The notes under the pieces are model-generated. The model saw only the letters and a list, made by a program, of their open reading frames with translations, was not told where the DNA came from and made no database searches. The translations under genes and the position numbers were made by a program. Shown in pieces: positions 34,745-46,727 of a stretch of DNA of 64,000 bases. Origin of the DNA: Natrinema sp. CBA1119. Lineage in GTDB: Archaea > Halobacteriota > Halobacteria > Halobacteriales > Natrialbaceae. Location of the stretch: NCBI RefSeq assembly GCF_002572525.1, contig NZ_PDBS01000001.1, forward strand, positions 1,178,001-1,242,000, written 5' to 3'. Numbering within the stretch: position 1 is the stretch's first letter; each line of letters starts with the position of its first letter.

Positions 34745-35263
34745 ATGGGAGACGTTACTGCTACCCTGCACACGAACGAGGGCGATATCGAGGTCGAACT
34801 CTACGACGAGCGCGCGCCGCGGACCGTCGACAACTTCGTCGGTCTCGCGACCGGCGGCAAGACCTGGGAGGACCCCGAAACGGGCGAAGAGGTCGACGGT
34901 GAGCCGCTGTACGACGACGTGGCCTTCCACCGCGTCATCGAGGACTTCATGATTCAGGGCGGCGACCCGACCGAGACCGGTCGCGGCGGCCCCGGCTACC
35001 AGTTCGACGACGAGTTCCACGACGACCTTCGCCACGACGACGAGGGCGTCCTGAGCATGGCCAACTCCGGTCCCGACACCAACGGCTCGCAGTTCTTCAT
35101 CACCCTCGGTCCCCAGCCCCACCTCGACGACCGACACTCCGTCTTCGGCAAGGTCACCGACGGCATGGACGTCGTTCGCGAGATCGGCGACGTCGACACG
35201 AACGCCAACGACCAGCCGAAAGAAGACGTCGTCCTCGAGTCCGTCTCCGTCGACTACGAGTAA
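34745..35263 (+). CDS. Cytosolic cyclophilin-type peptidyl-prolyl isomerase
   Basis: A 172-residue cyclophilin. Active-site residues are visible in [16 protein letters not shown] (Arg and Phe of the FHR motif), [16 protein letters not shown] and [11 protein letters not shown]. It has no signal peptide, so it acts in the cytosol. A single bacterial-type insertion ([16 protein letters not shown]) is shared with the next gene, showing that the two are duplicates. Confidence 0.96.
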
Positions 35264-35279
35264 CGCGTCGATCGACCGA

Positions 35280-36095
35280 TTGCGGACGATTTTCCGGCTG
35301 TTCGGACGCTCGACTCGAGCGCGATACGCCATCCATCACCGGGAGGGAATCCGATACGGTTACTTCGATGCCACGCCCACGAGCGGTATCACTTACCATC
35401 GACGAACGCTACTAGCAGGAACCGCCTCGAGCCTCGCCCTGGCGCTCGCCGGCTGCGCGGGGGACAAGACGGAAGATACGGAACCCGACGCGAGCGGGTC
35501 GTCCGAAGCTGGGGCTCCGAGTGGAGGGACGACGGCAACGATACGCACCAGCGAGGGCGATATCGACGTCGAGCTCTACGACGAGCGCGCACCGCGGACC
35601 GTGGAGAACTTCGTCGGCCTCGCGACGGGTGAGCGCGCGTGGATCGACCCCGAGACGGGTGACACCATCGAGGGCGAACCGCTGTACGACGACGTGATCT
35701 TTCACCGTGTCATCGAGGGCTTCATGATTCAAACCGGTGACCCAACCGGCACCGGTCGGGGCGGTCCCGGCTACCAGTTCGACGACGAGTTCCACCCCGA
35801 ACTCCGCCACGACGACGCGGGTATTTTAAGCATGGCCAACTCCGGTCCCGACACCAACGGCTCACAGTTCTTCATCACGCTCGGTCCTCAGCCCCACCTC
35901 GACGACCGACACTCCGTCTTCGGCAAGGTCACCGACGTCTCCGCGAGCGATGCGAGTGGAGGCTTGGAAGACGAGCGAAGCGAGTCTTCCAGTGGCATGG
36001 ACGTCGTTCGCGAGATCGGCGATGTCGACACGAACGCCACCGACCAGCCGAAAGAAGACATCGTCCTCGAGTCCGTCTCCGTCGACGACGAGTAA
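35280..36095 (+). CDS. Tat lipoprotein cyclophilin (exported peptidyl-prolyl isomerase)
   Basis: A 271-residue paralog of the gene directly before it. It has a Tat-type HRRTLLAG motif, a hydrophobic stretch, the lipobox LAGC (Cys59) and an acidic linker, then the same cyclophilin core ([28 protein letters not shown]). It would fold exported proteins at the cell surface. Two oddities: no ATG or GTG is in frame near the signal peptide, so only TTG 35280 with a 40-residue leader is available, or the 5' end is shifted. Also, 19 extra codons stand between KVTD and GMDVV (35937-35993). Confidence 0.88.
35937..35993 (+). repeat. 57-bp in-frame hairpin insertion inside cyclophilin gene
   Basis: The adjacent paralog reads [19 protein letters not shown] without a gap; here 19 residues, [19 protein letters not shown], come between. 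The DNA holds an 8-bp stem TGGAAGAC/GTCTTCCA at 35965-35972 and 35984-35991 around the loop GAGCGAAGCGA. The tandem paralog makes the insertion boundaries exact. Confidence 0.88.
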
Positions 36096-36217: not shown

Positions 36218-38932
36218 ATGGGAGCGCCTTCGCCGACCGATGTGGATCTCCACGAGCGTCTTCGCCGACAGGAAGTCATCGCCGAACTGAGTCAGCAGGC
36301 GCTTTCGAGGACCGATCTCGACGGGCTCTATCGCGATGCGACGGCCGCAGTCGCCGAAACGTTGGACACCGACTACTGCGTCGTCCTCGAGCGAGTACCG
36401 GACGGGAATGAGGGCGTCTGCAGAGCGGGCGTCGGCTGCACGGCAGGGGCCGTCGGGAACGCGACCGACGTGTTGAACCGGGACTCGCGGTCAGCGGAGT
36501 CCCACTCCGCAGAGGGGCCGGTCGTCGTCGACGATCTATGCGCCGACGAGCGGACGAGCGTCCCGACGTCGCTCACCGATCTCGACCTCGTGAGCGGTAT
36601 CAGCGTCCCGATCGGCTCGGGCGACGAGCCGTGGGGCATCCTCGAGACGTACACGACGGACCAGCGAGTATTCACCGAGTTCGACACCGATTTCGTGGGA
36701 CGTGTCGCGGGCGTCCTCGCCTCTGCCGTCGAGAACGAGCGGGCACACGCCGAACGCGAGGAGGTGTTCGGCCGGATCTCGGACGCCTTCTTCGCGCTCG
36801 ACGAGGAGTGGCGGTTCACCTACTTCAACGATCGCGCACACGAACTGATCAACCCCGAGGGGCGTGAGCTGATCGGCACGGAAATCTGGGCGGCGTTCCC
36901 CGAAGCCAGCGAACGGGCGTTCAAATCGGAGTACGAACGGGCGATGGCCGAACAGGAGACCGTCACGTTCGAGGAGTACTACCCCGACCCGCTCGACGCG
37001 TGGTTCGAGGTTCGCGCCTATCCGTCGGCGACCGGCCTCTCCGTCTACTTCCGCGACGTTACCGAACGGCGTGCGCACGAACGAACGCTCGAGGAGTCCG
37101 AGCGACGCTACCGGGCGCTGGCCCAGCACTTCCCGAACGGTGCCGTCGGCGTCTACGACCGCGATCTCGAGTATACGCTGACCGAAGGTACCATGCTCGG
37201 CGAGGTGCTCCCGTCCGCAGACCGACTCGAGGGGAGCCGAATGCCCGACGTGTTCCCCGACGAAACGGTCACGGACCTCGAGCCGCTGTTCCGAGCGGCC
37301 GTCGAGGACGGCGAAACCGGCAGCACGGAAACGGCGTTCGGTGGCCGAAACTGGCGCGTCTGGGCGACGCCGCTCCGCGACGGGAACGGAGACATCTTCG
37401 CCGGGCTAAGTTTCACACAGGACGTGACCGAACAGGTCGATCGCGAGAACCACCTCGAGCGCTACGAAACGATCGTCGAGGTCGTCAACGACGGCGTCTA
37501 CGTCGTCGACGAGGACGGACGGTTTACCATGGTCAACGAGACGTACGCCAAGATGCTCGGCTACGCCCCCGACGAACTCGTCGGCACCGATGCGTCCGCG
37601 GTCGTCGACGACACGGTGGCCAGGAAGATCCGGGAACTGGAAATCGCCACCGCGGATACGGACGTCGAGTGGCCCTCCGTCGAAGCCGAACTTCGGACGG
37701 CGGACGGCGGGACGCTTCCCGTCGAGGGGACCTTCGCGATGCTGCCCGAAGACGACAGTCGATGGCACCGGGTGGGCATCGTTCGAGACATCAGCGAGCG
37801 GAAGGCCCGGGAGCGCCGGCTCGAAGAGTCCGAGCGGCGCTACCGGACGCTCGTGGAGAACTTCCCCGAGGGCGCGGTCGGCCTGTTCGACGAGGATCTC
37901 GCGTACACGGCCGTCGGCGGGCAACTCCTCGATGAGGTCGGCGTCGCCGCGGAGGACCGCGTCGGGAGCAGCATCGACGAGATCCATCCGGACGGCCTGG
38001 TCGAGGAGATCGAGCCGTACTTCCATGCGGCACTCGACGGGGAGGCGAACTCCTTCGAAGTCGAACGGTACGGCCGTCACCTGTACGCCCACACGCTCCC
38101 CGTCAGGAACGGCGACGACGAGATCTTCGCGGGCATGGTCGTGGTGCAGGACGTCACCGAGCGCCGGGAGTATCAGCGAAAGCTCGAGGAATCGAACGAG
38201 CGCTTAGAGCAGTTCGCGTACGCGGCCTCTCACGACCTGCAGGAACCGCTGCGGATGGTTACGAGCTACCTGACGTTACTCGAGAACCGCTACGGTGACG
38301 CCTTCGACGAGGACGGTCGGGAGTTCCTCGCTTACGCCGTCGACGGGGCCGACCGCATGCGCGACATGATCGACGGCCTGCTCGAGTACTCCCGGGTCGA
38401 AACGCAGGGCGATCCGTTCGAGCCGACGGATCTGAACGCGGTGTTCGAGAACGTCCGCGAGGACCTCCAGATACAGCTCGAGGAGAGCGGTGCCGAGATC
38501 ACCGTCGAGGACCTTCCCCGCGTCGAGGGCGACGCCAGCCAATTGCGACAGGTCTTGCAGAACCTGCTGAGTAACGCGATCACGTACAGCGGCGACGAGC
38601 CGCCGCGAGTCCACGTCGGTGCCGACCGGCGGGGCGACGAGTGGGTGATCTCGGTCCGCGACGAGGGGATCGGCATTGACCCGGCTAATCAGGATCGGGT
38701 GTTCACCATCTTCGATCGCCTCCACAGCCGCGAGGAGTACGAGGGGACGGGTATCGGGCTCGCGCTCAGCGAACGCATCGTCGAACGCCACGGCGTCCGG
38801 CCGAACAGCGTGAGGGCGAACTCGACAGACGAGCGACGGGAATCTGTCGGTGGCGAGATCTGGGTCGACTCCGAGCCCGGGGAGGGGGCGACGTTCTCGT
38901 TTACGCTACCCGCCTCGCAAGAGCGGGAGTAG
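36218..38932 (+). CDS. Multi-PAS/GAF sensor histidine kinase
   Basis: A 904-residue soluble kinase with no clear membrane segment. In order: GAF-like domain (about 20-165), PAS (175-290), two more PAS-type repeats starting ESERRYRALAQHFPNG (about 297) and ERYETIVEVVNDGVY (about 408), a fourth starting ESERRYRTLVENFPEG (about 535), HisKA with phospho-His672 in AASHDLQEP, and HATPase with DEGIGID, GTGIGLAL. The second and fourth PAS units are recent duplicates. Residues 860-878 are an extra 19-residue segment splitting the conserved ERHG-GEIWVDSEPGEG motif. No response regulator is nearby. Confidence 0.94.
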   Translation: MGAPSPTDVDLHERLRRQEVIAELSQQALSRTDLDGLYRDATAAVAETLDTDYCVVLERVPDGNEGVCRAGVGCTAGAVGNATDVLNRDSRSAESHSAEGPVVVDDLCADERTSVPTSLTDLDLVSGISVPIGSGDEPWGILETYTTDQRVFTEFDTDFVGRVAGVLASAVENERAHAEREEVFGRISDAFFALDEEWRFTYFNDRAHELINPEGRELIGTEIWAAFPEASERAFKSEYERAMAEQETVTFEEYYPDPLDAWFEVRAYPSATGLSVYFRDVTERRAHERTLEESERRYRALAQHFPNGAVGVYDRDLEYTLTEGTMLGEVLPSADRLEGSRMPDVFPDETVTDLEPLFRAAVEDGETGSTETAFGGRNWRVWATPLRDGNGDIFAGLSFTQDVTEQVDRENHLERYETIVEVVNDGVYVVDEDGRFTMVNETYAKMLGYAPDELVGTDASAVVDDTVARKIRELEIATADTDVEWPSVEAELRTADGGTLPVEGTFAMLPEDDSRWHRVGIVRDISERKARERRLEESERRYRTLVENFPEGAVGLFDEDLAYTAVGGQLLDEVGVAAEDRVGSSIDEIHPDGLVEEIEPYFHAALDGEANSFEVERYGRHLYAHTLPVRNGDDEIFAGMVVVQDVTERREYQRKLEESNERLEQFAYAASHDLQEPLRMVTSYLTLLENRYGDAFDEDGREFLAYAVDGADRMRDMIDGLLEYSRVETQGDPFEPTDLNAVFENVREDLQIQLEESGAEITVEDLPRVEGDASQLRQVLQNLLSNAITYSGDEPPRVHVGADRRGDEWVISVRDEGIGIDPANQDRVFTIFDRLHSREEYEGTGIGLALSERIVERHGVRPNSVRANSTDERRESVGGEIWVDSEPGEGATFSFTLPASQERE
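38795..38851 (+). repeat. 57-bp in-frame hairpin insertion inside histidine kinase gene
   Basis: Nineteen codons (VRPNSVRANSTDERRESVG) separate ERHG from GEIWVDSEPGEG, two parts that are contiguous in HATPase domains of haloarchaeal PAS kinases (family knowledge). The DNA holds a stem CGACAGA/TCTGTCG at 38823-38829 and 38843-38849 around CGAGCGACGGGAA. Its length equals the cyclophilin insertion. Confidence 0.78.
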
Positions 38933-40551: not shown

Positions 40552-41932
40552 AACACAAACCGAGAGACGTCTCTCCGTGACTCAATACTGATGATATCAC
40601 AGTGTCCAAACGGAATGACAGAGAACTACTAAGTATCTCACTGACATATTGGAATATGTGGCTGACGACTACCTGAGACGGACTGCGATCACCCGTCCGA
40701 AACTCACCCCAGAGCAGCAACAGCTGCTTGACGCTACCATTCAGGAGTGGCAGACAGCCTGCAACATCAGTAGTCAAATTGGATGGGGAATAGGTGAAAC
40801 ACGAAAAACATCCCTCCAAGACCTCGCCTACGACGAGGTTCGTGAGAAGACACGCCTCAGGAGTCAACACGCAATTCTCGCAACCCACCAAGCCGCAGCC
40901 GCCCTCTCCGGCGTCGAAGAAATCGATGACCTCGATGAGGACTACAAAACCTCCCGTCCCGAGTTCACCGCAGACACGGTAAAGTACGACGCTCGGACGA
41001 TGACATTGTTCGATGATGGCACTGTATCACTCACGACAGTCGATGACCGCATTCGGTGCGATCTCGATCTGCCGGGGGACGAAGACGGTTACCAGCATCA
41101 GTATCTTGATGATGAGGACTGGGAGCTCACCGAACCCACGCTGTCGTGGCGTGATGATGACTACTACCTCCATCTCGGCTTCCGAAAACGGAAGCCAGAG
41201 AAGAAAATCAAACAACAGAATGACGCCGAGGACAGGACAGTTCTCGGCGTTGATCTCGGTATCGTCAACATCGCCACCACTTCCACAGCCTATTTCGCGT
41301 CCGGACGAGAACTGCGGCATCGACACCGGCAATTCGAAAAATTCGTGGTTCCCTACAGCAGACCGGGACGCAGTCCGCCCACCGCACGGTCCAACAGATG
41401 AGCGGGCGTGAATCACGTTACGTCCGTGACTCCCTCCACCAGGTCGCCAACCGCATCATCGAGGAAGCACTCACTCACGACTGCGAATACATTGCATTCG
41501 AGAACCTGAGGCACATCCGTAAGCGTACGCCGCCAGTGAAGGACCTGCACCAGTGGGCGCATCGCCAACTCGTCGATCTCGTGGAATACAAAGCAGAGAA
41601 GGAGAGAATCTCTGTGGAGTTCGTATCGCCGGAGGACACGAGTCGACGGTGCCCAGAGTGTGGACACACGAGTGAAGGGAATCGCGTTACTCAGTCCAAA
41701 TTCGAGTGTGAGTCGTGTGGTTCGACAGCGAACGCGGACTACGTTGGTGCGAAGAACGTTGGGTGGCGGTTTGTCCGTCGGGGCCTACAGTCGTCTCGGC
41801 GGACGGGCGACAGTCAACTTGCCCTGAAGTCAGGAACTGTGACGTCGACTCGGGGGTTCGTCCCGTCCGACTAATCATCGGCAGAGACCGAGTTTACTGA
41901 CAAGCCCCGCAATTGCGGCGCGAGGCAGTTGA
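40552..41932 (+). mobile_element. IS1341-like tnpB element inserted against the tRNA-Leu 3' end
   Basis: The element carries a single tnpB (frameshifted) on the plus strand. A 14-bp perfect palindrome GAGAGACGTCTCTC at 40562-40575 marks the left end, and a right-end hairpin CCGC-AATT-GCGG lies at 41907-41918, followed by GAGGCAGTTGAT. Exact borders are inferred. The sequence right after the right end (41934-41946) repeats the tRNA 3' part. Confidence 0.75.
40658..41874 (+). pseudogene. tnpB: tnpB with a one-base frameshift
   Basis: The reading frame from GTG 40658 (ADDYLRRTAITRPK) runs through RuvC-I (VLGVDLGIVNIA) and then turns into nonsense after RHRQFEK. The second half resumes in another frame, with QQMSGRESRYV, RuvC-II Glu in YIAFENL, zinc-finger cysteines CPECGH and CESCGS, and RuvC-III Asp in NADYVGAKN. 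Reading one extra A in the A5 run at 41337-41341 restores FEKIRGSLQQTGTQSAHRT, which joins both halves. Either a real inactivating deletion, a sequencing error or slippage is possible. Apart from that, all catalytic residues are intact. Confidence 0.88.
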
Positions 41933-46607: not shown

Positions 46608-46727
46608 GGCGGTTGGTCTAGGCTTTTTGGCCCAGATTTTGCGAGGAGGGGTGTGAGCGAAGCGAACACCCTCTCCGAGACAAAAGGTGGTCGCGCCAGG
46701 GTGCGGCGATCGAGTTCGACGTCAACT
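46578..46727 (+). repeat. 28-bp direct repeats of the thiolase 3' end around a 94-bp hairpin segment
   Basis: GGTGCGGCGATCGAG... is found at 46578-46605 (last codons of the thiolase) and identically at 46700-46727, followed by TAA in the first and TGA in the second. Between them, 46606-46699 includes a hairpin GGGTGT-GAGCGAAGCGA-ACACCC (46649-46671). The loop is identical to that of the cyclophilin insertion at 35937-35993. Confidence 0.85.

Follow-up and report, generated by a model that had tools for sequence, protein, structure and literature searches.

The 57-bp in-frame segment in a sensor histidine kinase gene of Natrinema sp. CBA1119 very probably belongs to a dispersed family of palindromic mobile elements of haloarchaea that are non-autonomous, moved in trans and filtered by reading frame. 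The segment is an insertion and shares a hairpin structure, with covariation, with copies in many unrelated host genes. These copies lie almost exclusively on one strand and in one frame, their presence at fixed sites is patchy, and the inserts are more alike than their flanks. The features of the window, which is the whole 64,000-nucleotide stretch of DNA that was analysed, are given in Table 1.

Table 1. Positions in the window of the kinase and cyclophilin genes, their inserts and the component hairpins (H1, H2).
Feature	Position	Strand	Basis or remark
Sensor histidine kinase, multi-PAS/GAF, HisKA and HATPase_c	36218-38932	+	Pfam; HATPase_c at about 38528-38917
57-bp double-hairpin element in the kinase gene; encodes VRPNSVRANSTDERRESVG, with ERHG on the left and GEIW on the right	38795-38851	+	Ortholog absence, covariance match
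H1 of the kinase copy: GTCCGGCC-GA-AC-AGC-GT-GA-GGGCGAAC	38795-38821	+	8-bp stem with two mismatches (decayed)
H2 of the kinase copy: TCGACAGAC-GA-GCGACGG-GA-ATCTGTCGG	38822-38850	+	Contains the arms CGACAGA/TCTGTCG (38823-38829/38843-38849)
Second family copy, in the cyclophilin gene; 19-residue peptide	35937-35993	+	H1 35937-35963, H2 35964-35992
Tandem cyclophilin paralog, empty site GTCACCGAC/GGCATG at 35161/35162	34745-35263	+	

The inserts of the kinase and cyclophilin genes

Kinase insert: Over the part that aligns, the nearest orthologs of the kinase, L033 and L034, are 96% and 94% identical to it; both lack exactly 19 codons and show CGCCACGGCGGCGAGATC at this place. The sequence-only reading was thus right that the ERHG/GEIW motif is normally contiguous and that an in-frame insertion divides it. 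The peptide is rich in Arg, Ser and Glu, as had been described, and the arms of the reported hairpin are present in H2. The second, upstream hairpin and the common architecture had been missed. H1 is intact in the kinase copy L144 of genome G023 (GTCCGGCC/GGCCGGGC), and the sister-species kinases L144 and L145 carry better-preserved versions of the insert. The kinase copy has no folding advantage over shuffles (z -0.6 as DNA, 0.2 as RNA). It scores 64.8 bits with the covariance model R2, of which it is itself a training sequence.

The segment does follow the G2 box (GTGIGLAL), to which it had been described as adjacent, but it starts about 7 codons downstream and lies outside the box. The suggested change in ATP-lid behaviour or kinase activity is unsupported. 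Pfam still scores the HATPase domain across the segment (7e-28), and the same loop is filled in at least 11 other kinases. In the AlphaFold2 model (whole-model pLDDT 64) the segment is a low-confidence loop in the turn from helix 187-201 to strand 224-229, and the strand is intact. Apparently the segment is translated, giving a short acidic loop that the kinase probably tolerates.

Cyclophilin insert: The cyclophilin insert is exactly 57 bp, the same length as the kinase insert, as had been noted. It is missing from the tandem paralog and from the cyclophilins of all other members of the genus. It folds at -30.6 kcal/mol (z -5.4, RNA MFE). The two inserts are 60% identical without gaps, and their stems differ in sequence yet pair. 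Both belong to one covariance family, which bears out the proposal that they are related hairpin insertions. Exactly two copies in the window are significant, at 81 and 64.8 bits (both of them training sequences of the scoring covariance model), and the next match reaches 19 bits. A lone hairpin of the same apex type lies at window positions 46648-46672 (GGGGTGT-GA-GC-GAA-GC-GA-ACACCCT). An IS605-type OrfB/TnpB-like gene at 40649-41874, 1.7 kb downstream of the kinase, is read in two overlapping frames (40649-41401 and 41398-41874) and is apparently frameshifted.

Structure and distribution of the family

Architecture: The element comprises H1 (27 nt), H2 (29 nt) and one further nucleotide, with the hairpins adjacent and no pairing from end to end. 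In each hairpin an outer stem of 8 or 9 bp carries the apex GA-NN-NNN-N'N'-GA, and the ends of the element read GTC...GACGGY. The GA..GA apex resembles a very stable GNA-triloop hairpin. In 26 full-length gap-free copies, 96.2% of the cells are paired, against 33-39% in slid controls, which keep the relatedness of the copies. Changes on both sides occur at 15 of the 21 pairs in the 26 full-length copies, with 94 compensated cells against 28 in shuffles, a shuffle statistic that is inflated by relatedness. The H2 loops of in-gene copies are often 6 or 9 nt shorter, which gives deletion variants of 51 and 48 bp.

Such pairing could also point to a functional RNA or DNA signal that selection maintains, such as a hairpin for protein binding or mRNA stability, rather than to a selfish repeat. 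The kinase copies alone show compensatory changes (92% paired, 7 pairs with changes on both sides), and hairpins of this type are common between genes, some of them next to T runs. Quasipalindrome correction, however, can restore stem pairing without selection. A functional signal is unlikely: presence in the same gene is patchy between sister species, the H2 loops of in-gene copies are often shortened, the window copy has lost pairing, and no Rfam family matches the element at the gathering score. Among the intergenic GA..GA hairpins, L014 and L017 adjoin runs of T or A, so the hairpin type may also be a transcript end signal.

Distribution: Genomes were scanned by covariance model, by pattern and by sequence stretches. 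The first covariance model, built from four copies that all come from kinase and cyclophilin genes, finds members in all 29 genomes of the genus and also matches unrelated genes, with E-values down to 1e-12. The second covariance model, R2, finds copies in 101 of 125 Natrialbaceae genomes and in 27 of 29 genera. The sequence-only reading had named the lack of such a hairpin family elsewhere in the genome as evidence against it; the family is clearly present there and in relatives. A length of 57 bp is small and in frame, as would suit a one-off indel, local duplication or slippage unrelated to the cyclophilin insert. This origin is ruled out, to near certainty, by a covariance family with constant architecture in 101 genomes.

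An exact VSASDASGG-type pattern gives 29 matches in 84,980 prokaryote species, and none of them is in Rickettsia. The matches comprise 28 entries titled Halobacteria and one metagenome-assembled genome titled 'Euryarchaeota archaeon', and most sit in long frame-0 ORFs. In Natrinema salsiterrestre (L329) the Kae1 insert and its flanks are the same as in genome G020. Four haloarchaeal plasmid records have matches, at least two of them inside AMP-binding/CoA-ligase genes. In viral contigs a loose pattern gives 120 stretches, of which the best among 80 scored loci reaches 37 bits (E 1e-4) in a stretch of GC 0.55, and a stricter pattern matches one viral contig. Viral spread was considered and rejected, as there is no phage match.

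Noncoding copies: A noncoding copy with the same 8+9-bp architecture occupies a conserved place, flanked by CAACCAGCACCGCGC and ACCCGCCC, in many species and sometimes several times per genome (L152-L157, L211, L213, L216, L223-L226 and L231). At L025 in the window's own genome, G000 (G000:C1:3056265-3056395), three direct copies of the GGCGAGCGAAGCGAGCC hairpin unit are spaced by exactly 57 bp within a longer array, and similar arrays occur elsewhere in the genome.

Host genes, reading frame and patchy presence

Hosts: In-gene copies occupy about 20 unrelated gene families, often essential ones. The hosts confirmed by Pfam are TsaD/Kae1, MetRS, a Val-type tRNA synthetase, a GatB-domain protein, aconitase, an MBL-fold protein, ETF, HMG-CoA reductase and an AMP-binding enzyme. 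GatE is a further host. UvrA, MetE, acyl-CoA ligase, a glutathione-S-transferase-like protein, an Elp3-like protein and others are assigned by sequence context only. One gene of genome G055 carries two in-frame copies, one full and one a 48-bp deletion variant (L184/L228).

Strand and frame: Codon-position GC and stops in the flanks served to assign the coding frame of each copy. Where both flanks are coding, 31 copies are in sense frame 0 and one is doubtfully antisense; about 50 copies are noncoding. Many in-gene copies are orthologous, which brings the 31 down to about 19 independent gene families. The model spans 62, 56 or 53 nt in genes, corresponding to inserts of 57, 51 and 48 bp, and all 31 keep the frame as multiples of three. 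Noncoding copies also span 54, 55, 58, 59, 61, 63, 64, 70 and 71 nt. The consensus has no stop codon in any of its six frames, which rules out stops as the cause of the bias and leaves selection, target choice, or both. Target choice is insufficient as the sole cause, since GACGGC stands in frame 0 in only 42% of its occurrences in window genes and in antisense frame 0 in 32%. The placement of GACGGC thus explains the frame-0 bias only in part.

The sense-frame consensus peptide has 21 residues, is rich in Ser, Asp and Glu, and carries a net charge of -4. An acidic frame that is used almost always, that suits a salt-in cytoplasm and that enters the same loops repeatedly would be expected of a domesticated, beneficial acidic linker selected in host proteins. 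The unrelated hosts, the patchy presence and the frequent decay and internal deletion make such a linker very unlikely, and the peptide is no more conserved than the DNA hairpin.

Kae1: The single-copy Kae1 gene contains the insert in 14 of 63 sampled genomes, a non-random sample that includes every insert carrier from an earlier Kae1 survey. On the flanking-DNA tree, presence requires 12 changes (shuffled mean 12.8), and at least 10 of them are forced by well-supported branches. It differs between the sister species G023/G000, G020/G019, G037/G038, G033/G030 and G097/G098. Two junction types occur, YD/GVSA...DGG/V and YDDG/VSA...SDG/V. GACGGY repeats flank some Kae1 copies only, and no constant target-site duplication is apparent among copies. 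Between species the Kae1 inserts are 84-96% identical, compared with 82-91% for the flanks and 60-79% for third positions. MetRS and Kae1 inserts are 82-91% alike.

Scattered presence combined with inserts that are more alike than their flanks is, judged by comparison of sequences, the pattern that marks a palindrome which is mobile and codes for protein. The insert could also be scattered by precise losses together with recombination of whole gene segments. Vertical descent with repeated precise loss is formally possible, but it would have to account for an apparently useless peptide that evolves at a lower rate than its surrounding gene. The slow change of the insert could be due in part to structural constraint or to conversion between copies.

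Kinases: The site ERH/GGEIW is filled at the identical position in the at least 11 other kinases, which belong to several genera, and their stems differ but mostly still pair. In the histidine kinase tree the window kinase is nested among insert-free kinases, which points to a recent arrival of the copy in this gene. Finding the segment at this position in orthologs had been named as evidence against an insertion of this kind. The segment does occur there in paralogous kinases, sometimes of other genera, while the true orthologs are empty, and this strengthens the element reading.

The window copy may have come by gene conversion from a paralogous kinase with a same-site insert, without a new transposition here. 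This route has a considerable chance of being correct, though somewhat below even, and it is compatible with the mobile family as the ultimate source. The other kinases with the insert include two sister-species orthologs whose inserts are 89-90% identical, and the codons on either side of the site show strong conservation across more than 30 kinases per genome. Another kinase of G000, L121/L131 (G000:C1:781970-782005), has the left half of the insert only, ERHGVRPNSVRPGSTFTIELP. It seems to have once held the insert, the right half being lost together with GGEIWVDSEPGE by recombination at GGCTCGAC repeats. In contrast, a donor with the full insert was not found in G000. The converted tract would be almost the insert alone, since the flanks match the insert-free ortholog, and conversion leaves the same pattern in single-copy Kae1 unexplained. 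Under the mobile-element reading, the window copy would have arrived after the split from the 96%-identical ortholog, either inserted anew or acquired from another kinase by conversion, and the decay of its H1 would have followed. In kinase-like sequence at L218 (G051:C1:248854-248916), a 63-nt copy breaks the frame, and the locus looks like a pseudogene.

Proposed mobility and relation to known repeats

Mobility: The element would insert beside GGC or GACGGC codons, moved in trans by some enzyme through a hairpin, single-strand or cruciform intermediate. Copies would spread within and between haloarchaeal genomes, and those in genes would survive only when in frame on the sense strand. The sense frame is predicted to encode a flexible acidic loop, and this would let proteins tolerate the copies. 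No transposase was found. Mobilisation by Y1/RAYT was rejected for want of association: IS200-type Y1 genes are absent from G020, G023 and G028, three genomes with in-gene copies, and at 30 Y1 loci no significant copy lies next to the gene. A further proposal, with even chances of holding, is that the family is actively spreading and adapted to coding DNA. Its ends would match GAC GGC, a common codon pair for Asp-Gly, which is characteristic of surface turns, and its loop would be acidic and disordered, so that the same nucleotide of essential genes would be recolonised in different lineages.

Rickettsia palindromic elements: These are in-frame palindromic repeats of about 150 bp (Ogata et al. 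2000, 2002, as cited in PMC10969869). The 2002 paper appears there under a title that calls protein-coding palindromes of Rickettsia 'a unique but recurrent feature'. The haloarchaeal family resembles them as a hairpin-forming palindromic repeat, with 96.2% pairing and covariation here. It also resembles them in its in-frame position in many unrelated protein genes (about 20 families here), in the encoded peptide, which is probably tolerated here, and in that the mobilising enzyme has been identified in neither. In contrast, its host is archaeal and its length is 57 bp (48 and 51 bp in variants) rather than the about 150 bp given in PMC10969869. It has two separate hairpins with GA..GA apices, and no sequence homology is apparent.

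REPs and MITEs: GTAG and CGTC REPs are described in extracts of PMC3733652 as small dispersed hairpins, often dimers, that are mostly intergenic, with some in ORFs including uvrA. The same extracts give CGTC-tagged REPs loops of 4-5 nt, a fixed CGTC end and a CCA-like tail, count RPE-4 and RPE-6 as CGTC type, and contain no haloarchaeal REP family. The haloarchaeal copies are likewise small dispersed hairpins in pairs, with uvrA among the targets of both (PMC3733652). Unlike CGTC REPs, they have an 11-nt loop region with two inner pairs and GA..GA and show no CCA tail, and the letters CGTC vary, standing at columns 3-6 of 17 copies out of 26. Unlike the GTAG REP/RAYT system, they are without an associated Y1 transposase gene. 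Prokaryotic MITEs (PMC10969869) are also short, non-autonomous and dispersed, with some in-frame fusions, whereas the present element shows no apparent terminal inverted repeats joining its ends and no evident constant target-site duplication, and no parent transposon was found. The size differs from that of the Rickettsia elements, and the loop, tag and tail differ from those of REPs, so the family is a member of neither group.

Mitochondrial double-hairpin elements: The double-hairpin elements of fungal and yeast mitochondria are not known as a family held to one coding frame. The likeness to them (e.g. PMC4478555) is by build alone, with two adjacent hairpins as one small unit, and those elements are mitochondrial.

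Significance: No prior description of a haloarchaeal element family of this kind was found in the open-licence literature, and as far as that literature goes the family is previously unrecognised. If the mobile-element reading is true, selfish DNA adapted to life in genes would have arisen independently in another domain. The family provides many natural pairs of essential enzymes with and without the insert (Kae1, MetRS, GatE and UvrA), and they occur in relatives of hosts that can be cultured and manipulated genetically. Such pairs could show how this DNA moves and what a 19-residue loop costs a protein. UvrA contains the element in five genomes (L219, L220, L247, L252 and L266), and that uvrA is a target both here and of intragenic bacterial REPs is a possible case of convergence.
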